Assembly (NCBI RefSeq): GCF_025685575.1 | Contig: NZ_JAGSYD010000001.1 | Span: 561,852-625,851 of the forward strand | Direction: 5' to 3' | DNA from: Granulicella cerasi | Lineage (GTDB): Bacteria > Acidobacteriota > Terriglobia > Terriglobales > Acidobacteriaceae | DNA length: 64,000 nucleotides | Shown: piece by piece, positions 1 through 16,347 of the stretch | How the letters are laid out: the number at the start of each line of letters is the position of its first letter | Position numbering within the stretch: position 1 is the first letter of the stretch | Notes under the pieces: generated by a model | Databases searched by the model: none | What the model was told of the DNA's origin: nothing | What the model saw: only the letters and a program-made list of their open reading frames with translations | Translations under genes and position numbers: made by a program

Positions 1-55
1 CACTCGCCAGCCGCGCCCGCAGCACCTCATAGAACGTGTCCTTCGCGTTCTGCAT
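1..55 (-). CDS. Phage-type hypothetical protein, N-terminal fragment
   Basis: Only the first 18 codons are inside the window; the gene runs off the left edge. The ATG at 55-53 is preceded by a good AAGGAG ribosome site at the right distance. The visible start is MQNAKDTFYEVLRARLAS. Its place directly after the head-tail connector and the small 192-575 protein suggests a head-completion or tail-joining protein, but the fragment is too short to assign a family. Confidence 0.6.
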   Translation of the reverse strand, partial: MQNAKDTFYEVLRARLAS

Positions 56-191: not shown

Positions 192-575
192 CTACGATCT
201 CGTCTCGCGCAAACCCAGCACATAGCAGTACGCCGAGCCCATCGCTTGCCCCGCCTTACAGCTCGTCACCGCATACAGCACATCGCCAACAACCACACCC
301 AACGCTGTCGCAAACATCGCCGTCGCAGACTCCGCACCAGCCTCACCCGCGGCCCGCGCCACCGCATTCGCCGACACCATCAACGCAGTGGTCTCCGCGC
401 TTTTTCGAAACACCGCAGGCTCCAACGCCACATCCTGAAACGCCGGCGTCGCGTAACCGAGCTCCTCGTCTGCATCACCCGCCACCGCCGTCATCGGCAC
501 ACGCAACGACACTCGCTGCCCACCATTCACACGCAGCAACGCATCCGCCGCTCGCGCATTTGCCTCAGCATTCAT
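192..575 (-). CDS. Small phage-type hypothetical protein
   Basis: This 127-residue, alanine-rich protein has no signal peptide or membrane segment. Its ATG overlaps the stop codon of the upstream head-tail connector gene as ATGA (572-575), so the two are very likely translated together. Its place after the connector suggests a head-associated or head-closure role. I do not recognise a family, and the function is inferred from position only. Confidence 0.6.
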   Translation of the reverse strand: MNAEANARAADALLRVNGGQRVSLRVPMTAVAGDADEELGYATPAFQDVALEPAVFRKSAETTALMVSANAVARAAGEAGAESATAMFATALGVVVGDVLYAVTSCKAGQAMGSAYCYVLGLRETRS

Positions 576-1174
576 CCGCCCAGCCTCTCCGCCACATACG
601 GCCGCAGCAACGCCTGCACCTGGCTGTCGATCAACGAGTCGCTAAAGTACTCCGTCTGCAGCGTGTCCATCTTCGTCGACTTCACATTCAGCCCCGGCGT
701 CGCCTGCGCATTCTTCACCACCTGCGCACAAGCCACCTTCACCGCATCCGGCACCACCGCAAGCCCCGCCGTATACGTGATCTCCACATCGCTATACCGC
801 AGCCCCAACGCATGACCAAACGCAACCTCACCTGTCGCCGCATCGACATCGAGCGTCGTCACATCCACATCGATCCACTGACCCGTCAATCCGAACGCAC
901 CTGCGACGAACTCCTGAAACGGCACAAAGCCCTCAAGCCTTTCCGTCAACGTCGCATACTTCGCACGCGCCGCCGTCACTGCACTCACCGGCCCATAGCT
1001 CAGCACCACACGCTGCCGCTCGCCCACACGCATGCGCTCCGTGTAGTTCGTCACCAGCAACGACGCCCGCTTGCAATGCGCATCGATCATCGCGCTCGCC
1101 GCGACCACCCACGCATCCGCCGTCTCTTCACTCAACCCAAACTCCGCATACTCCGCGGGTAACAAATACGCCAT
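572..1174 (-). CDS. Phage head-tail connector-like protein
   Basis: This 200-residue protein starts MAYLLPAEYAEFG and has the layout of gp6-like head-tail connector proteins: an N-terminal helical part (about 1-45, with residues such as ASAMIDAHCKR), a middle beta-rich part, and a C-terminal helical part (VKVACAQVVKNA and later). Members of that family form the ring under the portal that closes the filled head. It lies directly after the major capsid gene and before the coupled 192-575 gene, as expected for head genes. The ATG is preceded by GGGGAGG. The family call is from overall pattern and context rather than a decisive motif. Confidence 0.65.
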   Translation of the reverse strand: MAYLLPAEYAEFGLSEETADAWVVAASAMIDAHCKRASLLVTNYTERMRVGERQRVVLSYGPVSAVTAARAKYATLTERLEGFVPFQEFVAGAFGLTGQWIDVDVTTLDVDAATGEVAFGHALGLRYSDVEITYTAGLAVVPDAVKVACAQVVKNAQATPGLNVKSTKMDTLQTEYFSDSLIDSQVQALLRPYVAERLGG

Positions 1175-1252: not shown

Positions 1253-2224
1253 TTAGCGCGTCACCAGCACCTGATAATGCGCATAGCTCGCACCCTTCAC
1301 CACCGGCGCACCAAACTTCACGACCACATGCTGCGAAGCCAGCGAGCCAGGCGTGCCCAGCTGGAACACACGCGGATTCGCATCACCCAACCAGTGATAC
1401 TCAATCAGGTCTTCGGTCACGATGTACGCAGGAAGCACCGCCGATCCCGAACCCGGTGTACCCGTGTACGGCAGCGTCCACTCCGGAATCAGCGGCAGAT
1501 CGCCCGCCTGTGTCGAAAGCGTCTTCACCGTCATGCCGCCTTCCACTTCCTTCGTGTTCATCACCACGTTGAACTCCGACTTCATCTCGCGATCCAGCAG
1601 ATCCAGCAGCACCGGATTCGCATAGATCGCCGTCGGTCGAACACCATAGCTCGTGTTCGAAAGCATCTGCGCCACCGTCGACTTCAGTCCGTCGACAATC
1701 GACTCGCCCGCGCCGATCGCAAGGCTGTTGCCACCCGCCGCAATCTGCGACGCCACGCCATAGTACTGCGCCGTCGTCGGCGAGCTCAGACTCGTGTCTG
1801 TGCCATTCCACAGCGCAATGTCATGTGTGCGCAGAACACCATCGACAGTGTCGGCAAGGTCCTTCGCCTGCAGATACGCAAACTGCGACTGCTGCTTGCC
1901 CAGCTCCAGATCAAACAGGTTGTAGTTGATCTGCGAGACCAGCGCCTTCAGCGGCACACTGCGCTCCACACGCGTCGGTTGAACCACCGGCGCAACGATG
2001 TTGCGCGGGTCCACAAAGCCCGCCGAAGCTGCAGGCGAGGGAATCGCCGTCTCTTCAAAGTAGCGCGACGGATGGCCTGTCGCCGGCACCTGCTTGATGC
2101 GCTGACCAAACACACCACGACGGCGCACCAGGTCCGTGATCTCCGTCTGATACAGCGGAACCTCCACCGCACCCGGTCCAATGTAATCCGCTGCTGCGCT
2201 GATCTCCGTAAACTTCGCGTTCAT
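1253..2224 (-). CDS. Major capsid protein
   Basis: This is a 323-residue phage major capsid protein that builds the icosahedral shell. Its position, downstream of portal and probable protease genes and upstream of the connector, is the standard one. The start at 2224 (MNAKFTEISAAADYIGPG) was chosen because an AGAGGAG site lies 6 nt upstream. An open frame extends 18 codons further but lacks a ribosome site. The sequence has features of the capsid group with an N-terminal arm followed by an alpha/beta body (DRVIRRRG-like segment, LLDLLDREMKSEFNVV, and a C-terminal HVVVKFGAPVVKGASYAHYQVLVTR-like end). No long N-terminal scaffold domain is evident, so scaffolding may come from the 2379-2726 protein. 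Confidence 0.75.
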   Translation of the reverse strand: MNAKFTEISAAADYIGPGAVEVPLYQTEITDLVRRRGVFGQRIKQVPATGHPSRYFEETAIPSPAASAGFVDPRNIVAPVVQPTRVERSVPLKALVSQINYNLFDLELGKQQSQFAYLQAKDLADTVDGVLRTHDIALWNGTDTSLSSPTTAQYYGVASQIAAGGNSLAIGAGESIVDGLKSTVAQMLSNTSYGVRPTAIYANPVLLDLLDREMKSEFNVVMNTKEVEGGMTVKTLSTQAGDLPLIPEWTLPYTGTPGSGSAVLPAYIVTEDLIEYHWLGDANPRVFQLGTPGSLASQHVVVKFGAPVVKGASYAHYQVLVTR

Positions 2225-2378: not shown

Positions 2379-2726
2379 CTAGCCAACAATCCCCGCACGA
2401 AGCAACTCCGCCTTCACCGCGAACCTCTGCTCCACGCTCAGGTTCGCCAGCGCGGCATCGAGCGATGCACCCGCCTCAACACCCTTCGCGACCATCGCAC
2501 CCACGGTCTTACGACCAGCAGGCTCGGCAACCGCAGCCGCAGACAGCTCCGCAATCTTCGCCTCCGCCTCTTCCAGGCGACGCGGCAACTCCGCCTCACG
2601 CTCATTCGGCTCCACCGTCGCGGTGATCTTCTCCACACGCTCCGTCATCGAGCCCTCAAGTCGCTCAACCGAATCAATCAGTCGCTCCATCGCATCCACC
2701 AACTCCACCGTCATCTCGTCCTTCAT
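2379..2726 (-). CDS. Small coiled-coil phage protein, possible scaffold
   Basis: This 115-residue, strongly charged protein is rich in Glu and Ala, with heptad-like helices in its first 70 residues (MKDEMTVELVDAMERLID and onward) and a short C-terminal domain (LSVEQRFAVKAELLRAGIVG). It lies between the probable protease and the capsid gene, where many phages carry the scaffold or a decoration protein. The ATG at 2726 has an AGAGAGG site 7 nt upstream. The scaffold role is an inference from position and the predicted coiled coil. Confidence 0.55.
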   Translation of the reverse strand: MKDEMTVELVDAMERLIDSVERLEGSMTERVEKITATVEPNEREAELPRRLEEAEAKIAELSAAAVAEPAGRKTVGAMVAKGVEAGASLDAALANLSVEQRFAVKAELLRAGIVG

Positions 2727-2765
2727 CTCCACACCTCTCTCCGCGCACTCCGCGTTCTGCTTCCT

Positions 2766-3296
2766 CTATCCGCGACACTGACGCCGCAACCGAAACGAAG
2801 TCTTCCGATACGCCGCCTTGTCCTTCAACAAAATCGCCGCACCCGTAAATGTCGCTCGTGTCAGCGTCCACACGCTCGCCTTCATATCGGCCACATGCGC
2901 ATCGGCCAGCTCAAAGCTCATGCCCATCTCGCTCTGCGTCGCACGAGCCCCGCCCATGCGCTCTTCCATCTCCGGAAAATCCCGCGCAAACAAGAAGCCA
3001 CTCACCATCAGCCTTCGCCCATGCATCCGCGCGCTCGTGATGATGCCGCACTTCTGCCGCGCATCATGCCCATCCCAACCGGCTTTGTAGTCCACCGCCA
3101 TTCCCAGCAGACTCGGCATGGCCGCCTCCGCAGCCTCACGCGTCAACACCACACGATGCCCACGCGCTCCACTCGGGGCCTTATCGCTCGGCTCATCCAC
3201 CAGCGTCAAACACCCCTCAAACGGCAGCCGGTTCGGATGCTTCTCCACCTCAGGAAACGCCACCTGCATCGCCACCTCACGATGCGTCTTCTCCAC
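2766..3296 (-). CDS. Probable prohead protease
   Basis: This 176-residue protein lies between the portal and capsid genes, the usual place of the head maturation protease. The segment MGMSFEL near the middle resembles the serine-containing strand of prohead proteases. The later WTLTRATFTGAAILLKDKAAY segment resembles the strand pair in which those enzymes end their catalytic core. I do not see a certain catalytic His, so the activity is inferred. The GTG start at 3296 was chosen because GAGGAGG lies 5 nt upstream. An open frame extends further upstream into repeat sequence and is unlikely to be translated. Confidence 0.5.
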   Translation of the reverse strand: MEKTHREVAMQVAFPEVEKHPNRLPFEGCLTLVDEPSDKAPSGARGHRVVLTREAAEAAMPSLLGMAVDYKAGWDGHDARQKCGIITSARMHGRRLMVSGFLFARDFPEMEERMGGARATQSEMGMSFELADAHVADMKASVWTLTRATFTGAAILLKDKAAYRKTSFRLRRQCRG

Positions 3297-3317
3297 ATCC
3301 ACCTCCTCAGCAATCCA

Positions 3318-3396
3318 AAACTCATACCTCACGACTCGTAGCTCGCAACTCGTATCAAAACTGGCTGCTGGTAGCTGCAAAACGGAAAGCTGGACC
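3318..3396. repeat. Intergenic word repeat (GAGT and CAGCT types)
   Basis: This is the second composite copy of the element at 2281-2372: GAGT-type words at 3318-3360 followed by CAGCT-type words at 3357-3396. It lies between the portal stop and the protease start. Confidence 0.5.
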
Positions 3397-3401
3397 AAAC
3401 C

Positions 3402-4739
3402 CTACGCCGCGTCTGCCGTGACTAACTTCGGCAACCCAAGCCGCTCACGCACTTCATCACGCGTCAGCACCCCGCTTTTGAACAGCGACAAATGCTCCGC
3501 GCGTTCGGCCTGCTGCTTCTGCGCCGCAATCTCCTCAGGCGTAGGCGGATGAGGTTCAGGAAGAGCAGGCAGTCCACGCATCGCGCGTACATCCGCAACC
3601 GTGAGTACCTTCGCAGCCAGCATCTTCAACTGCGCATCGATCTCCTGCATCTCATCGCGACTCTCCAGCTCGCTCCATACAAACCGCAGATCATCCCAGC
3701 CCAACCGCTTGCCGATCACATCGCGCGTCACATGCTCCGCGATCAACCGCGCCAGCGGCACCACCGCATTCTGAAACGCCTCATCCGCCATCTCCGCAGC
3801 CGTCGAGCGATTCACATCGTTCAACACCCCCAGCATCATCGGCGGCAGATCGAACGCATTCGCAATCATCGCCAGCAAAAACTGCTGCCATTGCAAATGC
3901 AGGTCCGCATCCGTGCCACCCGCAAAGCGAAGCACCTCCGGCTTCTCGTCGCAGCTCAGCACCGGCACGCGCCCCGTGCCCTCCACCTCGTCCTGCCACC
4001 AGCGAATCAACCGCTCCTGCTGCTCCGGCGTGCGGTCCTTCATCCACAACGCATACTGCGCCACGCCATTCGCCGCCAGCTTGCCCGCATACCGATGCGC
4101 CTGAAAGAACTGCGTGATCGCCTCAAACGCCACCTCCAGCTTGCCCAGTCCCAGCACCGTATGCGTTCGCGGATTCAGCCGCACATACATCAGCTCGTCA
4201 TCGAGCAATGGCACCGCCGCACTCGCCACCCCATGGCGCATCTGCGCATAATGCGGCGTCGTCGCATCGCCATTCCACTCCGCATTCACCTGTACCGTCG
4301 CCCCATCCACCGGATACAGATTCACCGGCCTGCGCGCATCGCCGCTCAACTCCATCTCCACCGAGCCAAAGCCACCGACAAGAATGTCTTCGATCACCTG
4401 CTCCAGCAGCGTCTGAAAACTATCGCTCGCATTCGGCGCCTGCAGCGATCGCACCACCGCCGCCACGCGCTGGCGCTGCTCCACACCTTCATCGCCGACT
4501 GCGATCACACGCGGCTCCACGCGCCACTCCATCGAAGCGATGCGGTTCTTGATGTAGTTCAACGCCCTCCGCGCCACCGGCGTCTCCGCAAATCGCCGCA
4601 GGTTCTCCACCGTCGGTTTCGGCGCCGCATACGCTACACGCGTCGGCGAAAGCGCCAACCCTCGCGGCACACTCACCGTCTTGCGCTCGCCCTCGGCCTC
4701 CATCTTCGCCACCCTCGACCACACATCTTTCCAACCCAT
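3402..4739 (-). CDS. Phage portal protein
   Basis: This 445-residue portal protein would form the dodecameric ring at one head vertex through which DNA is packaged and ejected. It carries recognisable portal features: an early helical part (RRALNYIKNRIASMEWRVEP), the central DDELMYVRLNPRTHTVLGLG segment with the LGLGKLEVAF helix, the LLAMIANAFDLPPMMLG segment, and the late DVRAMRGLPALPEPHPPTPEE tail. The ATG at 4739 is used because GGAGGGG lies just upstream; a GTG directly before it is also possible. It lies downstream of terminase as usual, but here the accessory trio 4915-7590 separates the two. Confidence 0.88.
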   Translation of the reverse strand: MGWKDVWSRVAKMEAEGERKTVSVPRGLALSPTRVAYAAPKPTVENLRRFAETPVARRALNYIKNRIASMEWRVEPRVIAVGDEGVEQRQRVAAVVRSLQAPNASDSFQTLLEQVIEDILVGGFGSVEMELSGDARRPVNLYPVDGATVQVNAEWNGDATTPHYAQMRHGVASAAVPLLDDELMYVRLNPRTHTVLGLGKLEVAFEAITQFFQAHRYAGKLAANGVAQYALWMKDRTPEQQERLIRWWQDEVEGTGRVPVLSCDEKPEVLRFAGGTDADLHLQWQQFLLAMIANAFDLPPMMLGVLNDVNRSTAAEMADEAFQNAVVPLARLIAEHVTRDVIGKRLGWDDLRFVWSELESRDEMQEIDAQLKMLAAKVLTVADVRAMRGLPALPEPHPPTPEEIAAQKQQAERAEHLSLFKSGVLTRDEVRERLGLPKLVTADAA

Positions 4740-4750
4740 CACCCCTCCGC

Positions 4751-4914: not shown

Positions 4915-5730
4915 TCAAACCTTCAACTCATACCGAGCCGTCTCCGCCGCCCGCGCCAGGTCCGCCACCGTCAACACCCGAATCGCCTCGCGCTCCATCA
5001 CGCTCAAGCCAAACGCATACTGCTCCTCATCACCTACCGTCGCGCGACGCTCCACCACGGCCGTCAACTCAAGCTCCACACCTTCCACACGCGCCACACC
5101 TCCACGCAACCGCGAAGCCGAATATGCCAACCCCTTCGCGCCCTCAACGTCGCTCTCCAGCGACACCGCCTGAAACATCCGCACCTTGCCATTGCGATAC
5201 CCGCAATCCAGCTTCAGCGGATCACCCGCCTGCGTGTACTGCGACGCCGCAATCTTCTTACGCATCAGCTTCCACACACCCGCGCGCTCAAACGCATCCC
5301 GCATCTCACCCGCAATCAACGCGCGCCCACTCTGCTTCTGCCGTACACGAGCCACCTTCAGCGGCTCTACATACATCCGCATCAGCTGCTCCATCTCGGC
5401 CACTACGCTCTCTGCCAGCGTGGCGCGCATCTCCGTCAACTGCACGCTGTTCGACAGCGAATCCTCCAGCGTCTGCACAATCGGCTTCGCATTCACCGTC
5501 TCCACCACGCCCGCTTCCAGCCGCGCCGCAATCTCCGCCTCCAACGCCTCCAGCAACTCCGTGTCCGCATCCGGATCCATGCAGCGCACACGACTCCAGT
5601 CGCGCGTGAACTTCACCTGCGCCGCACCATCCGGCGCACGCAGCACCACGCCGATGTTCGCAAACTCGCCTTTCACTACATCCGGCACATACCGAATCAG
5701 CGAGAATTCGCACTGCAGCCTGTCCGCCAT
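4915..5730 (-). CDS. DUF3037 family protein
   Basis: This 271-residue protein opens with MADRLQCEFSLIRYVPDVVKG and GEFANIGVVLRAPDG, the hallmark N-terminus of DUF3037. It continues with a charged helical middle part and an Arg/Val-rich C-terminal part. DUF3037 genes are known to lie next to HipA-like kinase genes, as here, but their biochemical role is not established. The ATG at 5730 overlaps the stop codon of the upstream oxygenase as TGATG, which implies translational coupling; this decided the start over a longer open frame. The protein is longer than the core DUF3037 domain, so a second domain may be present after about residue 130. Confidence 0.75.
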   Translation of the reverse strand: MADRLQCEFSLIRYVPDVVKGEFANIGVVLRAPDGAAQVKFTRDWSRVRCMDPDADTELLEALEAEIAARLEAGVVETVNAKPIVQTLEDSLSNSVQLTEMRATLAESVVAEMEQLMRMYVEPLKVARVRQKQSGRALIAGEMRDAFERAGVWKLMRKKIAASQYTQAGDPLKLDCGYRNGKVRMFQAVSLESDVEGAKGLAYSASRLRGGVARVEGVELELTAVVERRATVGDEEQYAFGLSVMEREAIRVLTVADLARAAETARYELKV

Positions 5731-6704
5731 CACGCCCACTCCGTGTTGTGCGCAAAGCTCGTCGGCCACATCGACATATATTGCACCACCCTCGGCCGTT
5801 CCGCACGGTTCGCGCTGCTTGCATGCGGCAACGACTGATGCCACAGCACCAGATCACCGCGCTTCGCCGCAACCGGCATCAGCTCCGACGTCAAACTCCG
5901 CTTCGCATACTCCCGCACATCGTCTCCTGCAGGCACACGCTTCAACCAATCTCCCAGCGACCGATGAAACCCCGGCACACAACAAAACGCGCCTTGATCC
6001 TCGGCGACGTCCACGAGATACAAAACCCCTTGCACGCCAAAGTGGTGCGGCTCCGCCAATGTCGTGTCCCAATGCAGATGCGGCCCCGGAAACGGCCACC
6101 CCTCGCGCTCCGGCGGATTGAACCCCGCCTGGTCCACCGTCGCCCACAGATCCTCGCGCCCCCACAACTGCGCAAACGCCTTCGCCACCTTTGCCGACCT
6201 ACGGTTCTTCACCAACGCCGCATGACGCAACAACGGTACCCAGATCGTGTGCCCCAATTCCGCGCCATACCAACTCTCCGCGTCGTTCGGATCCATCTTC
6301 AGCTGCTCATACACCGCAGCCTCCGAGTCTCTCGCATCCTCTTCGCTGATCGCCCCGCGCAGCACCACATACCCATGCTCATCGCAGTGCGCGAGGTCTT
6401 CCTCACTCAATCCTTCAACACCCTCCAGCGACAACGGCGCCCCAACCACCTCGCCCCGCATCGCCGCACGCACCCGCTCCACCGCCGTGTCATCGAACCA
6501 CTCGCCGCTCCGCTCCATCACCCAGGCATGAAACGCCTCGAGACTCGGCTGCTCCTGCATCAGATAGAGGTTCGCCTCGCGCACATTCAGGCCCAGCCCG
6601 GCGAGCAGCGTCATATCGCGCACCCATGTCGCCGCGTCGCTCGCACTTACATGCCGCGTCTTCCGCTCCCAATACTCCGCCAGGTCCTTCGTCTCGAAAC
6701 CCAC
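5730..6704 (-). CDS. Phytanoyl-CoA dioxygenase-like 2-oxoglutarate oxygenase
   Basis: This 324-residue protein belongs to the PhyH fold of Fe(II)/2-oxoglutarate oxygenases, which hydroxylate small molecules. The iron triad is visible as H211 and D213 (HLHWDT) and H294 (SLPHASSANR). R304 in ERPRVVQY is the expected 2-oxoglutarate contact. The first 100 residues form a helical domain not typical of short PhyH enzymes. The GTG start lies 7 nt after the kinase stop with GAGG overlapping that stop, and the 3' end overlaps the DUF3037 start, so the three genes form one tightly coupled unit. The substrate is unknown. Finding such an enzyme between terminase and portal is unusual. Confidence 0.8.
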   Translation of the reverse strand: MGFETKDLAEYWERKTRHVSASDAATWVRDMTLLAGLGLNVREANLYLMQEQPSLEAFHAWVMERSGEWFDDTAVERVRAAMRGEVVGAPLSLEGVEGLSEEDLAHCDEHGYVVLRGAISEEDARDSEAAVYEQLKMDPNDAESWYGAELGHTIWVPLLRHAALVKNRRSAKVAKAFAQLWGREDLWATVDQAGFNPPEREGWPFPGPHLHWDTTLAEPHHFGVQGVLYLVDVAEDQGAFCCVPGFHRSLGDWLKRVPAGDDVREYAKRSLTSELMPVAAKRGDLVLWHQSLPHASSANRAERPRVVQYMSMWPTSFAHNTEWA

Positions 6705-6711
6705 CGCATCC

Positions 6712-7590
6712 TCACATCAAAAACTTCGCAGCATCCGCCGGCACCTCTACCAACCCATCGATCGCCACCGGCACATTCACACTCACTGACCGTCCCCAAT
6801 TCGGGAACGGTTCCCGCGATGATTCCCGAAACGCCACAATCAACTCCCGCACCTTCGCGCGTCGCACCAGCATCGCTTCCATCAACTTCTCAATCTCGCG
6901 CACATCCCCGCCGTACCACTCCGGAGGAACGCACTCCGCGATGCTCCACAACTTGTCCGCCGCAAACGCCTCAATCCGCGACAACCACGGCTCGAAACTC
7001 TCCCATCCGGTCACGCTACGGTACACCGAGTTGCGCGCAAACACACCCCGCAGTGGAATGTCCGGAAACGTCCACTCGCCCGCGTTGAAGCAATACCCCT
7101 GGTCCACAAACACCGCACGATACTTCCGCTCGCGTGGCTTGCGTTCATACACCGCTTGTCTTCCATTGCAATTGCCAGACCATTTGTCGACAGCCAGCAT
7201 GCCCGCGAACTCGCGCAGGTTCCGCAGCTCACTCATCTGCCCCTCGGGCAGGTAGTCCACTACCTGCCCCGGCATCAGTCCGCCCACAAACTGTGACCCA
7301 AACTGCAGCCCCGGCACGCAGCGTTCATGCCGCCCTTGCCCCAGCGCAAACGACATCGTCGGAGACTTCTCGGCGAGCCATTCACTCACCTCGATCACAT
7401 CCGTCTTCGGTACGCTCAGGCCCACAGCCTCAGCCAGCTTCGTCGCGATCAGCTCATTGGCCAGCACGCGCAGATGTTGTGGGTTGTTCTTGAACTTCAC
7501 CACCCACAGCTTTCCATCCGAGCCCAGCATCAACTGGCTCTGCGCTCCGCCGCGCATCTTTTGAATGGCTTGTACCGCCGTGACCGCCAA
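6712..7590 (-). CDS. HipA-like kinase family protein
   Basis: This 292-residue protein has the HipA-like kinase layout: a nucleotide-binding part with K32 (LWVVKFKNN), a conserved helix ANELIATKLAEAVGLSVP, the catalytic-loop equivalent D135 to N140 (AVDKWSGNCNGRQ), and D163 (AVFVDQGYCF) in the place of the metal-binding Asp. HipA-type enzymes phosphorylate protein targets; HipA of E. coli modifies GltX. The target here is unknown, and the protein is shorter than HipA, lacking its N-terminal subdomain. No HipB-like antitoxin gene is next to it; a DUF3037 gene follows instead, an association seen in other bacteria. A TTG start was chosen because the frame is closed upstream and AGGTGA lies 7 nt before it. 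Confidence 0.75.
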   Translation of the reverse strand: MAVTAVQAIQKMRGGAQSQLMLGSDGKLWVVKFKNNPQHLRVLANELIATKLAEAVGLSVPKTDVIEVSEWLAEKSPTMSFALGQGRHERCVPGLQFGSQFVGGLMPGQVVDYLPEGQMSELRNLREFAGMLAVDKWSGNCNGRQAVYERKPRERKYRAVFVDQGYCFNAGEWTFPDIPLRGVFARNSVYRSVTGWESFEPWLSRIEAFAADKLWSIAECVPPEWYGGDVREIEKLMEAMLVRRAKVRELIVAFRESSREPFPNWGRSVSVNVPVAIDGLVEVPADAAKFLM

Positions 7591-7704: not shown

Positions 7705-9168
7705 TCAACCCACCATCTCCGCCCGCACACAAAGCCCCAACGCCATCGCCATCACCAGGTCATCATGCCTGCCCGCCGCAGCGCCCATGCGACCACCCTC
7801 GCTCACCACAAAGCTCCTGCATTCGCGCAACAACCGCTCACTCATCACCGCCTCAGCACGCTCACCGAGCCAGGCATCCAGTCGCGCTATCATCTCCGGC
7901 TTCGAGGCCGAGGTCGTCAACCACCCGGCCTCGCCACGCAGTCTGTACAGCCGCCCATACCGCTCCTGCGTTTCGAGATACGCAATCACCGCCGCGCCAT
8001 GATTGTTCCGCTCGACCGCCACCAGGGCCTCGCCATACTCGCGCGCCAGCGCCGCCACCACCCGTGCCAACTCCGCCGGCCGCAACCGCTCCTGCAACTC
8101 CGCACACTGCATCCCCGTTGCGATATCCAATACCTGTACCGCAGCAAAGTCGCCTTCACCCACGCCACCAGCGGTATCCACCGCCACCAGATACTGCCGC
8201 CCCGCACGCGCTGGCAACCACACACGCAACGCTCCACCACGTCGCACAGCAGCGGCCCCGGGCGTATCACGCAACCTGGCCTCAATCGCCTCCACCGCAA
8301 AGCAACAAGCCCCGGTCGCACGGAAGCAGCTCTCCGCATCTTCGGCAAACTCTTGCGCCCGCAGCGCACGAAAGTTCTTCTCCAGCCCACGCCGAAACCC
8401 GATCTGCTCCGCGCTCAACCCATGCGCCCGCACCAGCGCCAACTCCTCCGCACTCATCGCCTGCACATCAACCGCCGCGCCCACATAAGCTCGCTCCATC
8501 CACCACGGCATAAAGTGCCGCACCGCATCACCACTCATCCACTCTTCGTAGAACGCCCCATACGCACCCTGCGGCGTACTCTCCAACACGCTCTGCCCCT
8601 CCGGCGCCAACGCCGCGCGCAGACCCGCAAGCGTCTCCGTCGCATCGCCAGGCCATCGCCCTACCTCGCTGCAATGCAGCATCTGCAAACTCAGCCCGCG
8701 CCCCGCATTCGCCTCGGCCGCACTCGCAATGCGCAGCTCACTCCCAAGCTCCGCAAACACCATCTGCGCGCTATTGCTCCGCTCCAGCCGCAACGCACCC
8801 TCGCGCATCTCCAGCGGGAGAACTCCCCACATCCTGCGCGTCATCGCGAACAAACTCTCCGCCGCATCGCGCGTATGCGCCACCTCGAGCACCATCACGC
8901 CCGGGTGCGTTATCGCAAAGAGCAGACACTGCGCTGCCGCCCACGTCGTCATCCCCATCTGCCGGGCCTTCAGCACGATATTGTGTTGTCCACGTCGCTG
9001 CTCATACGCACGCTGCGCCGTGTTCGCCTCCAGCGCAATCATTCTCCCGCGACGATCGCGCACGCGCACCCAGCGCTGCGCCACTTTCATCGCATAGCCG
9101 CGTTCCTGCTCCATGCGACGGCCCATCTCCAGCAGATACTCCACATCCGTCCGCCGCTTCTTCGGCAC
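7705..9168 (-). CDS. terL: Phage terminase large subunit
   Basis: This 487-residue DNA-packaging motor carries an N-terminal ATPase and a C-terminal nuclease. The ATPase P-loop equivalent is KARQMGMTTW. A Walker-B-like segment reads LHCSEVGRWP, followed by the coupling motif ESTPQG. The nuclease acidic residues appear in LVAVDTAGGVGEGD, VAVERNNHG and HDDLVMAMAL. The GTG at 9168 was chosen because GAGGAG lies 4 nt upstream and the longer open frame runs antisense-like into the terminator and tail-fibre gene. A separate small subunit is not recognised; 15162-15449 is a weak candidate. Confidence 0.9.
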   Translation of the reverse strand: MPKKRRTDVEYLLEMGRRMEQERGYAMKVAQRWVRVRDRRGRMIALEANTAQRAYEQRRGQHNIVLKARQMGMTTWAAAQCLLFAITHPGVMVLEVAHTRDAAESLFAMTRRMWGVLPLEMREGALRLERSNSAQMVFAELGSELRIASAAEANAGRGLSLQMLHCSEVGRWPGDATETLAGLRAALAPEGQSVLESTPQGAYGAFYEEWMSGDAVRHFMPWWMERAYVGAAVDVQAMSAEELALVRAHGLSAEQIGFRRGLEKNFRALRAQEFAEDAESCFRATGACCFAVEAIEARLRDTPGAAAVRRGGALRVWLPARAGRQYLVAVDTAGGVGEGDFAAVQVLDIATGMQCAELQERLRPAELARVVAALAREYGEALVAVERNNHGAAVIAYLETQERYGRLYRLRGEAGWLTTSASKPEMIARLDAWLGERAEAVMSERLLRECRSFVVSEGGRMGAAAGRHDDLVMAMALGLCVRAEMVG

Positions 9169-9184
9169 TTCACTCCTCACCTGC

Positions 9185-9233: not shown

Positions 9234-12200
9234 CTAGTTCGCGCTCAGCAGGGCAATCGTCATCTCTGCCGCCTGAATGCTGAACGCCGTGCCATCGACA
9301 TACCCATACATCTGCAGATGGTCGCCAGCATTCAAGTGCACCGTGCGCACGTTCTGCGCGCCGTTGCGCGTCGCGGCCGGCGTCGTGAACCAAAGGAACG
9401 AAGGCACATCCGCCACTGCCACCGCAGCGCCCACGCCATAGTTCACGCCACTCGTACTGCTGTCCGCAAAACGCAGCGTCGTCACTACCTGGTACGTTCC
9501 CGTCACCGGCACGACATAAACGTTGTTCGTCGCGTCCCACGCGCCGCTCGTGTCCGTCGTCACGCTCGGCAACAGAATCTTGAAGAAACTGCTGTTCGTC
9601 GTCGCCTGTGCACCGTAGTTCGTCGAGTACGTCATGTCCGCAAACACCACGTTCGACGCGCTTCCGCCGATCGGTACTGACCACGTTCCATCCTCGCGCA
9701 GATAGCGCGTCGCACCCGCGCTGGCTCCAGGATCCGGCACCGCACCCACCGCATGAGTCGCACCGCTCGGTCCAAACACCGGCAGACGCGCCGCTGCAAT
9801 CGTGCCCGTCGTAATCGCACTCGCGCTCACACCGCCGTTGATGCTCGTGGCATTCAGCGTTGTTACGTTCATCGTCTGCGCATTCACCGTCGTCGTCGTG
9901 AAGCCATTCACTCCCAGCGACGCCGCACCACCCGCAATGTTGAACTCCAGCTCGCGCGTCTGCGGTGCAAAGGTGATCGCGTCCGTCGTCGCGCCACTCG
10001 CGCTATCCATCAGCATCAGCGCATACGTCGAGTTCCACTTGCTGCACCCATGCAGATTGCAGCCCACATGCAGCGCCGCGCTTTCGCCCGCTTCCACATC
10101 CATCGCATACTTCCACGGGCCATTCACGCCCACACCGGCCGATGGCAGCAGATGCGTTCCGCCTTCGCCGCGATACTCCGTCGCCGCATTGGCATTCGTG
10201 GCGTTGAAGCCCTCCGTGCCCGGACCGACATTGCCGCTGTAGGTCAACCCGCGCGACGAGTTACCGCTACGCTGCGGCAGATAACGCGTCACCACCTCAT
10301 AGCTCGGCTTCACGTCTGCCTGAAAGTAATGCGGCTCTTCCACCGTATCGCCCGCAGCCCAGTTCACCGTATTCGCAGCCAGCGTAAACGCACCGTCGAT
10401 CGCACGCGTGCCGGCGTTCATCACGCTCAGCACCTCGGCCATCGGATAGAGCGCGTAGCTCCCGGTCAGCACACTTACCGTGCCTCCGCTCGTCGTCGTG
10501 TCCGCACCTGTACTGGTGAACTGCAACTTGTTCGAAGCGGTCGAGGTCATCGTGAACGTTCCGTTGAAGCTCGGATCGCTCGCTCCACTCAGTGTCACAG
10601 CCATGCCGCTCAAGTCGCGGGCATCACCGCTCACCGTCGCCGTCGCCACATTGCTCGAACGCACAATCGACGTCACCGCGAACGACTCATTCAGATACCC
10701 GCCCGTCGTTTGCATGCGACCGATGACTGAAGTCTGTCCGCCTGCATACAGAAGCTCCGTTGCACTCGTTGAGCCCAGCACCGGAAACACCTGTTTCAAC
10801 ACACCCACCGTGTCCACCTTGGACTCGATGCCGTATCCGCACAGGCCACCTACCGCAATCGTCGCGCCGCTCTGATGCGGCTTGTTCAGCGTCAACTGCA
10901 CATGCGTTCCATCGACTACGTGGAACGCTGCAGTCTCGAACTGCTCATCCAGCCCTTGAACAACATCGTCCGCCACACAAGCCACACCGTTCGTGCTCGG
11001 CAACGCCGCCGTATTCGTCGCAAAGTAACTCGCTACACCGCTCGTCGCAATCGGCAGCGTCACCGTGCCTGGAGCCACATTCGTCGCTTGTGGATTCGCA
11101 GCCGCAGCCGTTGCCAGAAACACGCTCACCGGAAAGCTCGACCCGCTGAAATCCGCGAGCCCATGCGTCGTCACCGTACCCGAGATCAGCTGCCCCACCG
11201 AGATCACCTTTGCCGGGTTCGTGTCGATCAGGTAGCGGCCTTCGCCCTGCGTGCCACCATCCGCCACCACAGTCGTCGTAAGGCTCGTCGAGCCCGGCGT
11301 ACATCCACTCGCACAAGTCGCGCGGAAGAGATGTGTATCTTCATACGTCAGCCAGTCGAACATATGCGAGCCTTCATCGCTCGCATCTCGAGCGCCACCA
11401 GACGCATTCAGCGAGAACGACTCCACAATGCAATCACCCACCGCATAGCAGTTCGCCGCCGAGCTCGTGTTCAAATGCTGACCCAGCGTGTAGTAGTTCC
11501 CGGTCAGCGACTGTGCCGTATACGTCGATTTGAAGTAAGGCACGCTGCCGCCATTCGCCAGCGCCGTATTGCTGCCGCCCGACAACGCATCGATCTCCGC
11601 GCTCTCTGCCGCCACATAGAGATTGCCGCCATACGTCGCCGCGGGCTGCGTCGATTGCACACGCTGCGTGCTCGCAATCGCATCATCGCTCGACGGTGAA
11701 TGCGGATCGAGATACAGGTGATACTCCGCAGCCCCACGTTCGTCCTTCAAGTGCTCATGCGTACTGGTGCTCGCGACCGCCGTCACACCCGTGCCGCTAT
11801 AGTTGGCATCGATCACCACGCTGCACTTTCCCGCCACACACTCCGGGCTCGCCTGCGCCGCTGCCACTCCATCCGTCGAAGGCGAAGCCACAAACCCCGA
11901 CGCATACAGCTCGCCGTTCAAGCGATTCACTTGCAGCTCTGTATTGTCCGGCTGCGACACCACCTGCGTTGCACTCGGCAGCAGCGCCACCTTGCCGTTG
12001 ATACCCGCAGCCACCGCCGTCACATTCGTGTCCACATAGTTCTTGTCCGCCGCCTGCGTCGCTGTCACCGGATCACCCGGCAACACCAGCGGCCCACTCA
12101 TCGTGTCGCCCGCCTTCAACACATACGGCGAGCTGTCCAGGGGAATCGCACCAATCTGCGCCTGCGCGATCTGCGTGTCCACATACTGCTTGCTCACCGT

Positions 12201-12617
12201 CTGCATCGCCACGCTCGCGGGCAAGACCTGATTGCGTACCCCCGCAATCTTCGCCGCGCCGCCACCCGGCACAGTCACCGGAATCACCCAATACTCCTTG
12301 CTCACTGTGCCGTCGGTCAGGTGATACACCACCGTGTAATAGTTCCCCATCGGCGTCGCACCTGCGTTCGGCGCCAGTGCCACACGCAGGCCACCCTGCG
12401 CATCCAGCGTCACCGTCTTCACGCCCGCTGGCACGCTCACGCCGTTCGCCATCGTGAACGCATTCCACGAGATCAACACCGTACCCTGCGCCGCCGTTCC
12501 ATCCGCGCGATACACCGTATCGCTCACCGCCGTCGTCGTTACCTGTGCCGTCGCCAGACTCGCCCACATCAGCGCAAACGCCAGCAGCGCAGACCACCGC
12601 TTCCATCCACTCTTCAT
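9234..12617 (-). CDS. Secreted tail-fibre-like protein with C1q-like C-terminus
   Basis: This 1127-residue, Ser/Thr/Gly/Ala-rich protein opens with a clear Sec signal peptide (KSGWKRW, a hydrophobic stretch, then ATAQ). Residues of about 130-200 carry the phage-fibre type segment KAGDTMSGPLVLPGDP followed by ADKNYVDTNV. A long beta-rich middle resembles a fibre or parallel beta-helix. The last 110 residues look like a C1q/TNF-type jelly roll (VPVTGTYQVVTTLRF, then VHLNAGDHLQMYGY). Such ends trimerise or bind ligands. A signal peptide is not expected on a phage virion protein, so it may be a cell-surface protein derived from a fibre. The ATG at 12617 has GGAGGGG just upstream. Confidence 0.65.
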   Translation of the reverse strand: MKSGWKRWSALLAFALMWASLATAQVTTTAVSDTVYRADGTAAQGTVLISWNAFTMANGVSVPAGVKTVTLDAQGGLRVALAPNAGATPMGNYYTVVYHLTDGTVSKEYWVIPVTVPGGGAAKIAGVRNQVLPASVAMQTVSKQYVDTQIAQAQIGAIPLDSSPYVLKAGDTMSGPLVLPGDPVTATQAADKNYVDTNVTAVAAGINGKVALLPSATQVVSQPDNTELQVNRLNGELYASGFVASPSTDGVAAAQASPECVAGKCSVVIDANYSGTGVTAVASTSTHEHLKDERGAAEYHLYLDPHSPSSDDAIASTQRVQSTQPAATYGGNLYVAAESAEIDALSGGSNTALANGGSVPYFKSTYTAQSLTGNYYTLGQHLNTSSAANCYAVGDCIVESFSLNASGGARDASDEGSHMFDWLTYEDTHLFRATCASGCTPGSTSLTTTVVADGGTQGEGRYLIDTNPAKVISVGQLISGTVTTHGLADFSGSSFPVSVFLATAAAANPQATNVAPGTVTLPIATSGVASYFATNTAALPSTNGVACVADDVVQGLDEQFETAAFHVVDGTHVQLTLNKPHQSGATIAVGGLCGYGIESKVDTVGVLKQVFPVLGSTSATELLYAGGQTSVIGRMQTTGGYLNESFAVTSIVRSSNVATATVSGDARDLSGMAVTLSGASDPSFNGTFTMTSTASNKLQFTSTGADTTTSGGTVSVLTGSYALYPMAEVLSVMNAGTRAIDGAFTLAANTVNWAAGDTVEEPHYFQADVKPSYEVVTRYLPQRSGNSSRGLTYSGNVGPGTEGFNATNANAATEYRGEGGTHLLPSAGVGVNGPWKYAMDVEAGESAALHVGCNLHGCSKWNSTYALMLMDSASGATTDAITFAPQTRELEFNIAGGAASLGVNGFTTTTVNAQTMNVTTLNATSINGGVSASAITTGTIAAARLPVFGPSGATHAVGAVPDPGASAGATRYLREDGTWSVPIGGSASNVVFADMTYSTNYGAQATTNSSFFKILLPSVTTDTSGAWDATNNVYVVPVTGTYQVVTTLRFADSSTSGVNYGVGAAVAVADVPSFLWFTTPAATRNGAQNVRTVHLNAGDHLQMYGYVDGTAFSIQAAEMTIALLSAN

Positions 12618-12685
12618 CGCCCCTCCATTTCGCATATCTCTCCCTTGCGCGCCCACCCACGCGCAGCTTTGCTACCATCGACCTC

Positions 12686-13077: not shown

Positions 13078-14106
13078 GTGGAAACGAATCACCGCACACG
13101 CATCGCCGTCATCGGGGCAGGGGCCTTCGGCCGCAACCATCTCCGCGTCTACCGCGAACTCGAAGCCTCCACCGACGTCCAGCTCACCGCCGTCGTCGAC
13201 GCTTCGCCCGAGATCCGCACCGCCGCCGCTGCGCAATACAGCATCCCGGCCTTCGCCACCGTCGAAGAACTTCTCGCCGCGCGGCTGGACCTGGACGCCG
13301 CCAGCGTCTGCGTGCCCACCATCCATCACGCCGCCGTCGCGCAGCAGCTCCTCGCCGCCGGCCTCGATGTCCTCATCGAAAAACCCTTCGCCGCCACTCT
13401 CGAAGAAGCCGAGCAAACCCTCGCCATCGCCCGCGCACACGATCGCATCGTGCAGATCGGCCATCTCGAGCGCTTCAACCCTGCGGTCACCGCAACCCTC
13501 GAAAATCTCACGCAGCCCATGTTCTTCGAGGCCCACCGCCTCAGCCTCTTCACCCCGCGCTCGCTCGACGTCGATGTCGTTCTCGACCTCATGATCCACG
13601 ACCTCGACATCGTCCTCGCCCTCGCGCGCTCAGAAGTCGCCAGCGTCCACGCCACCGGCATCCCCATCCTGTCGCGCAAAACCGACATCGCCAACGTCCG
13701 CGTCGAGTTCCACTCCGGCGCCGTCGCCAACTTCACGGCCTCCCGCGTCTCCACCGAGCAGGTCCGCAAGCTGCGCCTCTTCCAGCCGCATCAATATCTC
13801 TCGCTCGACTTCGCCCGCCAGGAACTCCTCACCATCTCCGTGGACCCCGCGCTCGCCGAACAAATCTCCAACGGCTACCGCCCCCCAGCAACCGTTCCGG
13901 CGAACCACCCCACCACCGGCTTCGACCTGCAGAAGCTCGACCTCCCCCGCGCCGAACCTCTGCGCCTCGAGCTCGAAGACTTCCTCGCCAGCATCCGCAC
14001 GCGCCAGCAACCTCGCGTCCCCGGCGAAGCCGGCTTAGCCGCCCTCGCGCTCGCCCTCCGCATCAACGCTGAAATTGCCGCCCACCATCAGCGCGCCGGC
14101 CTCTAA
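13078..14106 (+). CDS. Gfo/Idh/MocA family oxidoreductase
   Basis: This 342-residue, NAD(P)-dependent sugar oxidoreductase has the dinucleotide loop GAGAFGRNH near the N-terminus, followed by the family's VCVPT and LIEKPFA segments (about residues 80-105) and the C-terminal beta-sheet domain with HDLDIVLAL. The GTG start gives METNHRTRIAVIG. The substrate cannot be told from sequence. It is on the strand opposite to the phage-like genes and looks like an ordinary cellular gene enclosed by them. A bidirectional-type terminator follows at 14133-14167. Confidence 0.85.
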   Translation: METNHRTRIAVIGAGAFGRNHLRVYRELEASTDVQLTAVVDASPEIRTAAAAQYSIPAFATVEELLAARLDLDAASVCVPTIHHAAVAQQLLAAGLDVLIEKPFAATLEEAEQTLAIARAHDRIVQIGHLERFNPAVTATLENLTQPMFFEAHRLSLFTPRSLDVDVVLDLMIHDLDIVLALARSEVASVHATGIPILSRKTDIANVRVEFHSGAVANFTASRVSTEQVRKLRLFQPHQYLSLDFARQELLTISVDPALAEQISNGYRPPATVPANHPTTGFDLQKLDLPRAEPLRLELEDFLASIRTRQQPRVPGEAGLAALALALRINAEIAAHHQRAGL

Positions 14107-14207: not shown

Positions 14208-15104
14208 CTACTTCAACTCCTGCACCGTCACCGTCGGCGGAGGCTTCAGTTCAAACTGATCATCCTCCAGCTCGCCATTGATGGTCATCTTCGTGATCTC
14301 CACCTTCAGCGAATACTGGTCCAACGGCCGCTGCATCGTGATCACCGACGGAAACTGCACGTTATTGAACGTCTTGTACTTCTCATACGTCGCCGACGTC
14401 ACCACGCGCCCTTGCTCGTCATAGATGTCCTGCTGAAACGGCAGCATATCCACGCGGCTGATGTGCAGCACACGCACCGTGCGCAGCACGTTGCCTGACT
14501 TCACCTTCGAAATCGTCAGGTCATAGTCAGGCTCTTCCATCGACACCCGCTTCTTGTCCGGCAACGGCACAATGCGCGTGGACTCGTTCAAGCTCACAAA
14601 CTCATCTGCAGCCACGCCCGGCACCAGCAACGAATCGAAGAACACTCCCGGCCGCAAGTTCTCCAGCCCATTCTTCGACGGCGTCGTCACCGTGTTCGAC
14701 CCATGCATCCACGCATCGCCATGTCCGGCCGTCGCATGCACCAGCGTGAACATCTTTCCGTCCGACACCATATCCAGCGCACGCGACCCCAGCACCGGCA
14801 ACTGCAGAATCACCCGCAGATCGTTCGGCTTGCGCACAAAGATGTACCCGCGGAACGAGGTGTACGTCACCACCTTGCCCGTCTTGCCACCGCCTTGGCT
14901 GGCCGTAATCAGCACACTCGCGTTCAGCGTCTTGATCGACGCATCCCGCGCAGACGTATCCTTCTCGATCTGGTCTACAGAGGTCGAGTGATATATGTCC
15001 GGAGCCATCGTCTTCTGCACCAGCTTCGTTGTCTGGTAGCAGCTCTTCGGTATGCCCAGAATGGCGAAAGCCGCCACCAACGATACTGTGCGAAATCCCA
15101 TCAT
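14208..15104 (-). CDS. LolA-like periplasmic lipoprotein-handling protein (DUF4292-like)
   Basis: This protein of about 298 residues has a hydrophobic N-terminal export signal (FRTVSLVAAFAILGI) and an export-site Cys in PKSCYQTT that does not match a standard lipobox. The rest is beta-rich, with SVLITASQG, a FRGYIFVRKPNDLRVILQLP segment and a DMVSDGKMFTLVH segment. This resembles LolA/LolB and DUF4292 proteins, which bind lipids on the inner side of the outer membrane. The start is uncertain: ATG at 15104 or 15101, or a TTG at 15119, none with a clear ribosome site. It looks cellular rather than phage-derived. Confidence 0.7.
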   Translation of the reverse strand: MMGFRTVSLVAAFAILGIPKSCYQTTKLVQKTMAPDIYHSTSVDQIEKDTSARDASIKTLNASVLITASQGGGKTGKVVTYTSFRGYIFVRKPNDLRVILQLPVLGSRALDMVSDGKMFTLVHATAGHGDAWMHGSNTVTTPSKNGLENLRPGVFFDSLLVPGVAADEFVSLNESTRIVPLPDKKRVSMEEPDYDLTISKVKSGNVLRTVRVLHISRVDMLPFQQDIYDEQGRVVTSATYEKYKTFNNVQFPSVITMQRPLDQYSLKVEITKMTINGELEDDQFELKPPPTVTVQELK

Positions 15105-15161
15105 CGATTCAAGGAACAAGTATATCGACGCCCGAGCACCCTTTGCCGATTCATCTCTTTT

Positions 15162-15449
15162 TCAACCGCCCCGCTCTAACTCTTCAAACAGCCGCTGCGC
15201 CGCACCCTTGCCTCGCCGCTTGCCCTGTGCCTCGTTCTCCTGCAACAACTCCGTCGCCAGCTTCACATGCTGACAGCTCCCGCTCTTCGCCGCGTTCAGA
15301 AATCCCTCCAGCACCGACGGAAAGTGCTCCGCCAGTGTTTTCCGCATGAACTTCCCACATTGCGAAGGTCGCAGCGGTCGCTCCGGGGCCTTCACCTCGA
15401 CCCTCTTCTCCGCCGCCTTCGGTTGCCCTACCGCCTTCTTAGCCCCCAT
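15162..15449 (-). CDS. Short basic hypothetical protein
   Basis: This 95-residue protein has a Lys/Pro-rich N-terminus (about 1-30) and then a helical part (GKFMRKTLAEHFPSVLEGFL, later HVKLATELLQ). The charge pattern and size could fit a terminase small subunit or a DNA-binding protein, but I see no decisive motif. The ATG at 15449 has GGTGG just upstream, directly after a terminator-like hairpin. It lies between the sigma-like gene and the LolA-like gene, all on the minus strand. Confidence 0.55.
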   Translation of the reverse strand: MGAKKAVGQPKAAEKRVEVKAPERPLRPSQCGKFMRKTLAEHFPSVLEGFLNAAKSGSCQHVKLATELLQENEAQGKRRGKGAAQRLFEELERGG

Positions 15450-15460
15450 TCCCACCACCC

Positions 15461-15496
15461 AAAACAAAAGCGGCAGTCCCTGTCGGGCCGCCGCTT
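15461..15496 (-). terminator. Hairpin with T-rich tail before the 95-residue gene
   Basis: An interrupted stem (AAGCGGC at 15468-15474 with GCCGCTT at 15490-15496, plus inner pairs) is followed by TTTTGTTTT on the minus strand and then by the next ribosome site. Confidence 0.65.
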
Positions 15497-15618
15497 CCTC
15501 ACTTACCTATCCAGAATACCAACCTCACCAGAAAAACTACGCAAACAAAATATCCCTGCCTATCTCCCGCAAATCCAGCACGTTACGGCTTTGCCCCCCA
15601 GCCGTCACCCCTTGACAG

Positions 15619-15680
15619 CGAAACTCACCACTCACCACTCGTCACTCAAAACTCAATCCCAAACCGAAAGCTACCTGCAC
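15619..15680. repeat. Intergenic word repeat (GAGT and CAGCT types)
   Basis: ACTCACCACTC-like tandem words at 15619-15660 are followed by a short CGAAAGCTACCTGC part. The composite layout matches 2281-2372, 3318-3396 and 7621-7700. Confidence 0.5.
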
Positions 15681-15683
15681 CCT

Positions 15684-15712
15684 AAAAAAACGGCGAGGCC
15701 GAAGCCCCGCCG
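15684..15712 (-). terminator. Terminator of the sigma-like gene
   Basis: A 9-bp stem (15691-15699 with 15704-15712, one G-T pair) with a TTCG loop is followed by T7 on the minus strand, 18 nt after the stop codon of the sigma-like gene. Confidence 0.9.
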
Positions 15713-15729
15713 CAAGAACCACCGCGCGT

Positions 15730-16347
15730 CTACGCCCGCCCATGCATCGGCTCGAGCATCTTCGCCGCCAGCAGCATCCCGGTCAGCCGGTCGATCGCCT
15801 TGCCATACTTCGACACCACCGTCCGCAGACTCACACCCAGCATCCCCGCCGCTTCGCCGTGCGTATACTCCTGCAGCGCGATCCGCTTGATCAGTTCCTG
15901 CTCCTCGCCTGTCAGCTTCGCCAGGCAGCGCTCCATGTCAAAGCAGAAGATGATGACGTCCTCGAAGCTCTTCACCCGATAGCTCGTCACCTTGCTCCGA
16001 AACAGCTCCCGACCCAGCAGACTCGGCACGCGGCCCGACTCCATTGCCATTCGCAGATAGCGGCGCAACATCGCCTCCGTGTACTTGCGATAGAACGCCA
16101 GTTCCGGCTTCGGAGCCTCAGCGGGCTTGGCCGTCTCAACGGGCGCTGCCGCAAGCTCGCCCACAGCCCACATCCGCGGCACCACCACCACGCGCCCCGT
16201 TGATCCCTCGCGCAACACCTGCTCACCCATCACACGCTGCTGCGCCGGAAACATCACCACATTCGACTTCTTCGCCATCATCACCGTCTGCTCCTTCTCA
16301 TCGTTCATCTTCGTCATCGCCGTCGCCGTCAGAGTCATCGCCCTCAT
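15730..16347 (-). CDS. Sigma-region-4-like HTH regulator
   Basis: This 205-residue protein has a basic N-terminal part (residues about 1-75) and a C-terminal half resembling sigma-70 region 4: KLTGEEQELIKRIALQEYTHGEAAGMLGVSLRTVVSKYGKA, in which EAAGMLGVSLRTV is the helix-turn-helix. It lacks a region 2, so it is probably an activator or phage-type late-gene regulator rather than a full sigma factor. The ATG at 16347 overlaps the stop of the upstream zinc-ribbon gene as ATGA, with GAAGGGG upstream. It is first in line ahead of the phage-like genes, which suggests a control role. Confidence 0.7.
   Translation of the reverse strand: MRAMTLTATAMTKMNDEKEQTVMMAKKSNVVMFPAQQRVMGEQVLREGSTGRVVVVPRMWAVGELAAAPVETAKPAEAPKPELAFYRKYTEAMLRRYLRMAMESGRVPSLLGRELFRSKVTSYRVKSFEDVIIFCFDMERCLAKLTGEEQELIKRIALQEYTHGEAAGMLGVSLRTVVSKYGKAIDRLTGMLLAAKMLEPMHGRA

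Follow-up and report, generated by a model that had tools for sequence, protein, structure and literature searches.

A predicted HipAD-type kinase–DUF3037 pair inside a gene transfer agent-like phage head cluster of the Acidobacteriaceae

What is a kinase of the HipA type doing between the terminase and portal genes of a phage packaging module, and does the oxygenase gene that follows it belong to the same system? The question is raised by a 64,000-nucleotide stretch of Granulicella cerasi DNA (contig NZ_JAGSYD010000001.1, positions 561,852 to 625,851), hereafter the window, to which all coordinates refer unless the contig is named. There, three genes on the minus strand encode a HipA-like kinase (6712..7590), a PhyH-type 2-oxoglutarate/Fe(II) oxygenase (5730..6704) and a DUF3037 protein (4915..5730). 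An earlier note made on this DNA suggested that the trio could be a phage-carried accessory module, and it described the arrangement correctly: the kinase and PhyH genes are 7 nt apart, the PhyH and DUF3037 genes share a TGATG overlap (stop codon TGA at 5732-5730, ATG at 5730-5728), and Pfam and PHROGs place the terminase upstream of the trio and the portal downstream. We propose, with a probability of about two in three, that the kinase and DUF3037 genes alone form a toxin-antitoxin anti-phage pair of the HipAD/PDC-M66 type, which is inherited vertically in the bacterial class and which lies, in the Acidobacteriaceae, between the terminase and portal genes of a head cluster resembling a gene transfer agent (GTA). 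Below, G numbers are sampled genomes and L numbers sampled loci or contigs (the window genome is G000, its contig G000:C1); f1 stands for the Acidobacteriaceae, f2 and f7 for other family groups.

The pair belongs to a type that is already known. The kinase matches HipA_2 (PF20613, 7e-10) and the DUF3037 protein its own family (PF11236, 1e-24), while PADLOC recognizes them as PDC-M66A (1e-7) and PDC-M66B (7e-17). The earlier note had called the two genes known neighbours and they do form a real unit: the DUF3037 gene, present in 72 of 101 relatives, adjoins the kinase gene in almost every family searched, also away from the phage cluster; in the window PhyH intervenes. K32, D135, N140 and D163 of the kinase are invariant in 17 homologs, and, as the earlier note suggested, it looks active; a sequence search of its profile against solved structures gave no match, and the structures nearest to its AlphaFold2 model are HipA, HipT, CtkA and PI4K kinases. 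Related pairs have been studied experimentally: in the Retron-Sda1 operon, defence is lost on deletion of the kinase, and deletion of DUF3037 proves toxic (PMC12548924), and in DS-6, renamed HipAD, mutation of a kinase residue abolishes defence (PMC13092281). By homology, the window encodes a predicted toxin and a predicted antitoxin or regulator of the PDC-M66 type, whose relatives DS-6/HipAD defend against phages as toxin-antitoxin systems. A 34.7-kb viral contig with an integrase-like open reading frame (ORF) also encodes a kinase with 46% identity to that of the window (L213, 5992-6798); no DUF3037 gene was found beside it.

Around the pair lies a phage head cluster with terminase, portal, HK97-fold capsid, adaptor and tail-like genes. 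Its genes and the trio are all on the minus strand, in the transcription order fibre-like gene, terminase, kinase, PhyH, DUF3037, portal, a gene in the prohead-protease position, a scaffold-like gene, capsid and adaptor. The large terminase subunit (7705..9170, start codon uncertain; Terminase_6C 4e-5, phrog_2 1e-23) has its ATPase and nuclease motifs intact (KARQMGMT, AVDTAGG, VAVERNN, HDDL), the portal protein (3402..4742) matches PF04860 (9e-53) and phrog_2662 (5e-38), and the head-tail adaptor (572..1174) matches phrog_442 (1e-17). The major capsid protein (1253..2224) is assigned by its fold: its profile found no match among solved structures in a sequence search, and residues 133-323 of its AlphaFold2 model, which is confident in the C-terminal half only, align to encapsulins and phage capsids with Z up to 13.4. 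The cluster continues for about 4 kb left of the window, to about window position -4134, with genes for proteins of 164, 299, 712, 118 and 111 amino acids (aa), and spans about 17 kb in all. Past its left end, on the opposite strand, stand genes for a 2-oxoacid dehydrogenase E2 and a lipoyl ligase; its right border is a chromosomal oxidoreductase gene of the GFO/IDH/MocA family (hereafter GFO; 13078..14106, plus strand; PF01408 6e-28).

This arrangement recurs across the family. The capsid gene occurs once or not at all and is found in 36 of 101 relatives and in 35 of 396 genomes across the phylum, all of them Acidobacteriaceae (named members belong to Granulicella, Edaphobacter, Bryocella, Acidipila, Acidobacterium and Terriglobus), with 70-93% capsid identity across the family. 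The kinase gene lies directly upstream of the portal gene, on the same strand and at a median gap of 1.25 kb, in 99 of the 106 genomes that have both; the place that the earlier note took to be normally free of cargo is thus occupied by the pair in almost all clusters of the Acidobacteriaceae. Of the seven other genomes, G059 and G035 really have pair and cluster apart, and in five the best matches lie on separate contigs. The cluster ends at E2 in all 12 genomes extended on that side, GFO or E2 is the border elsewhere where it is in view, and GFO borders the locus in relatives both with and without phage genes. In seven loci from Edaphobacter and others (L194, L200, L201, L204, L226, L237 and L245) the capsid block precedes the fibre and terL genes, and the pair is still between terL and portal.

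Both the cluster and the pair follow the history of their hosts. Tree distances of five head genes correlate with those of rpoB (Mantel r 0.91, none of 2000 permutations reaching this value), and the share of agreeing quartets is 85%, or 93% within the genus; for the kinase and DUF3037 proteins together r is 0.90 and 85% of quartets agree, only 63% within the genus, and their tree groups the pairs by family. The ratio of non-synonymous to synonymous divergence (dN/dS) is 0.03-0.28 for the head genes and 0.32 for the 712-aa gene, and synonymous divergence of the head genes is like that of host genes (between G000 and G006, 0.63 for the capsid gene vs 0.50 for the flanking E2 gene). Because it is single-copy, confined to the Acidobacteriaceae among sampled Acidobacteriota, found at one site, congruent with rpoB and under purifying selection, the cluster has the profile of a GTA-like domesticated phage, and it is inherited as an ordinary chromosomal locus. 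No report of a gene transfer agent in Acidobacteria was found in the literature searched. Prophages have been listed in these genera, none being reported in strain KBS 146 (Eichorst 2018, PMC5900883); our searches find the head cluster in that strain. A study of the Sphagnum core virome describes phage-like contigs, possibly degraded or co-opted prophage, that align with genomes of the Acidobacteriaceae and Acetobacteraceae (PMC12142844). One genome stood out in the rpoB tree: G062 is placed in f2 and its rpoB (L181) groups firmly with that of G035 from f1, so that G062 is probably a mixed or misplaced assembly.

Which came first, the pair or the cluster? In other families profile searches found no phage genes in the flanks of the pairs, mostly about 6 kb on each side, and in f7 the pair already stands beside E2. 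Two Granulicella clades and Terriglobus albidus DSM 26559 have nothing but the pair between GFO and E2. Within the genus, a single clade of pair-only genomes is rejected by the approximately unbiased (AU) test (p-AU 0.007 on rpoB and 0.04 on the pair tree); therefore at least two separate losses removed the phage genes from both sides of the pair. In these pair-only genomes dN/dS of the pair is 0.07-0.14, and its persistence after loss of the phage genes argues that it works independently of any particle. The two can also be separated the other way: G059 (L188) keeps the cluster and does not have the pair between terL and portal, and in the viral contig L174 terL and portal are about 280 nt apart, without the pair. 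These comparisons of gene content and trees lead us to conclude that the pair predates the cluster and persists after it, although another order may also be envisaged: a cluster of the same age as the pair, later lost from all other families. In L188, the pair's usual place (14612-16062) holds two genes unrelated to it, for a 247-aa secreted-looking repeat protein and a 144-aa protein that by inspection resembles 23S-rRNA intervening-sequence proteins.

The oxygenase has a different history. It has a PhyH match (PF05721, 1e-17) and, as the earlier note had seen, an intact HxD...H and Arg motif (HWD, a later H and R in the translation), together with an N-terminal extension of about 100 aa that is kept among close relatives; the nearest solved enzymes are weak matches. 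Any PhyH relative occurs in only 15 of 101 relatives. The pair encloses a PhyH gene in G000, G006, G007 and G015 only, and a 3' remnant of one in G009 (L038), hence in five sampled species. The earlier note had suggested a search for the three genes together, and had itself named absence of PhyH from most kinase/DUF3037 pairs as the result that would make the trio a chance insertion rather than a system: among the 80 closest kinase loci in named genomes, PhyH lies between the two genes in 2 and is missing there in 78. In the PhyH tree the G015 gene, which is inside the pair, groups with one from G010 that lies outside the pair, with a transposase-like ORF close by. The four PhyH carriers that have an rpoB sequence do not form a single clade on rpoB (p-AU 0.018), and all five PhyH-bearing pairs group together, weakly (83/91), in the pair tree; this conflict implies either exchange of the segment between lineages or two insertions, both being possible. 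No PhyH match was found in phages or viral contigs, and plasmid matches are distant oxygenases. PhyH thus looks like a recent mobile passenger between the pair genes of a few Granulicella lineages, the PhyH genes inside pairs not being one lineage. Selection on it persists (dN/dS 0.22-0.29), so it does something for the host. A three-gene accessory system, in which the oxygenase would modify a small molecule or protein that controls the kinase, could draw on the intact and selected PhyH gene, on how closely it is coupled to DUF3037 in the window through the TGATG overlap, and on the weak grouping in the pair tree; we nevertheless reject it as very improbable given the PhyH distribution, the decayed copy in G009, the link between G015 and G010 in the PhyH tree and the scatter of PhyH carriers on rpoB.

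How would the pair work? By analogy with the tested systems, we infer toxicity, neutralisation, a trigger and a target as follows: DUF3037 would keep the kinase inactive until phage infection, or loss of DUF3037, frees it; the freed kinase would then phosphorylate a host target, growth would stop and the infection would abort. PhyH would not be needed for this function, and the benefit would accrue to the cell independently of any particle. Such a pair could be addictive: deletions of phage genes may tend to stop at the pair because DUF3037 would not easily be lost before the kinase. The cluster, on the same reading, would make particles that carry DNA. A further step, which we hold to be rather doubtful, would make the cluster a family-wide GTA of the Acidobacteriaceae that produces DNA-carrying particles, the first described in Acidobacteriota according to the literature searched, with the HipAD pair wired into its head operon so that particle production, or attack by a rival phage, is coupled to growth arrest of the producer. 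Four points weigh against our reading of the locus. The kinase model is of middling confidence (mean pLDDT, the predicted local distance difference test score, of 66). The DUF3037 protein of the window has no DUF1829 or helix-turn-helix (HTH) match (E 0.1), unlike the DS-6 and Retron-Sda1 partners; the PDC-M66B match spans its residues 8-218, and the DUF1829/HTH part is not known as a requirement of the family. Tail genes are not recognized by Pfam and PHROGs, and holin-like genes are also without a family match. Lastly, how an older pair came into the middle of the cluster is unexplained.

The position of the pair invites another interpretation, namely that it is co-transcribed with terminase and portal and regulates the particle cluster, the kinase (held by DUF3037) arresting producing cells or gating packaging or release as part of a GTA machine rather than as a defence. 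The pair's fixed place between terL and portal, seen in 99 of 106 genomes and kept even in rearranged clusters (L194, L200), would fit, as would the shared strand, and so would the lack of a sigma-70-like site between the genes on the coding strand, which is weak evidence. We consider this unlikely because the pair predates the cluster and purifying selection still acts on it in genomes that have lost all phage genes, and because clusters exist without it (G059/L188, L174) or apart from it (G035).

The cluster could also belong to an ordinary temperate phage family, with repeated integration between E2 and GFO and with the pair as its defence moron. Viral collections could be read this way: 26 IMG/VR contigs carry the capsid gene, most with the same gene order. 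Those with this order are mostly shorter than 20 kb, and contigs shorter than the locus are not distinguishable from pieces of chromosome. Three soil viral contigs of 74-214 kb (L178, L179 and L180) also count for a phage: they encode, at 10001-10969, a capsid 70% identical to that of the cluster, with other genes different and no other cluster gene in the stretch read, which suggests a phage group sharing the capsid and possibly related to the ancestor phage of the cluster. As an account of the cluster itself, a temperate phage is nonetheless distinctly improbable: from E2 to GFO in G000, library matches recognized neither an integrase nor a repressor nor a replication gene (several genes there being without identification), there is always one copy, the phage tree follows rpoB, capsid and E2 have similar synonymous divergence, and 50,697 phage records held no capsid or kinase match. 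What stands of the earlier proposal is the location inside a head module and a plausible role in phage exclusion; the vertical chromosomal cluster and the older pair do not fit an ordinary phage with cargo.

Under the preferred reading, an anti-phage pair in a GTA-like cluster, the locus combines features of systems known separately. With PDC-M66/DS-6/HipAD it shares both families, matches to both PADLOC profiles and the catalytic residues; it differs in being chromosomal and vertical across a bacterial class, in lying inside a phage head cluster in one family and in having no detected DUF1829/HTH part, whereas the tested examples are free-standing or beside a retron. The HipA-type fold and D-N-D catalytic residues are those of HipBA/HipBST, but the partner is DUF3037 and no HipB-type HTH antitoxin adjoins the kinase, its neighbours PhyH/DUF3037 and terL having no HTH family match. 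The PhyH protein has the domain, HxD...H and Arg of PhyH 2-oxoglutarate oxygenases and differs by its N-terminal extension. Like the GTAs (Rhodogtaviriformidae with RcGTA, Bartogtaviriformidae and Brachygtaviriformidae), the cluster is a compact chromosomal head-tail locus of about 15-17 kb, vertical and under purifying selection, with an HK97-type head, terminase and portal and no integration or replication genes recognized. Unlike them, it is found in another phylum and carries a kinase-antitoxin pair between terL and portal, and its particle and DNA transfer are putative; our searches recognized none of its proteins as akin to those of known GTAs.

The usual places for anti-phage pairs are defence islands and the cargo of phages. 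What is new here is the setting rather than the type of the pair: it holds a fixed central place in a phage head cluster inherited by a whole family of abundant soil bacteria, and it can outlive that cluster. Two questions follow: do Acidobacteriaceae use a GTA to exchange DNA, and does the toxin-antitoxin pair protect the domesticated phage, regulate it or simply survive it? Caution is also called for, as a soil contig classed as viral may, if it carries this head cluster, be a piece of a bacterial chromosome.

The earlier note also mentioned a terminator and repeats 3' of the trio. The repeat is real: a 22-nt sequence resembling AACTCATCACTCACGACTCAAA occurs on the plus strand between cluster genes at 3319, 4808 and 7633 (0 expected) and also at contig positions 558298 and 576031. 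It has 16 near-matches genome-wide, 15 of them on one strand and 4 within the 17-kb cluster, and is not present in the clusters of relatives; it is a genome-specific intergenic repeat, and on these grounds we set aside an insertion scar or operator. An 11-bp terminator-like hairpin does lie at 4786-4761, but such sites are as numerous in shuffled sequences as in the region and we do not retain it as a terminator.

The remaining cluster genes, all on the minus strand, are defined mostly by synteny. A conserved gene without family match (2766..3398) holds the prohead-protease position in relatives with sequence there, and a conserved small protein (2379..2732), with weak coiled-coil-like matches only, precedes the capsid gene in a scaffold-like position. 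Downstream of the adaptor are a conserved gene of 127 aa (192..575), whose family is not recognized, and the start of the 164-aa gene (1..55), read past the window edge on the contig. At the left end (G000:C1, about 557717-558415), the 118-aa protein has a single C-terminal hydrophobic helix and is holin-like by inspection; with the 111-aa protein also encoded there, it might represent lysis genes. At the right end, the large fibre-like protein (9234..12656), an ORF without library match that is conserved beside terL in relatives, is 31-62% identical to its counterparts in the compared loci; its N-terminus (MKSGWKRWSALLAFALMWASLATAQ) resembles a signal peptide, which is odd for a phage structural protein.

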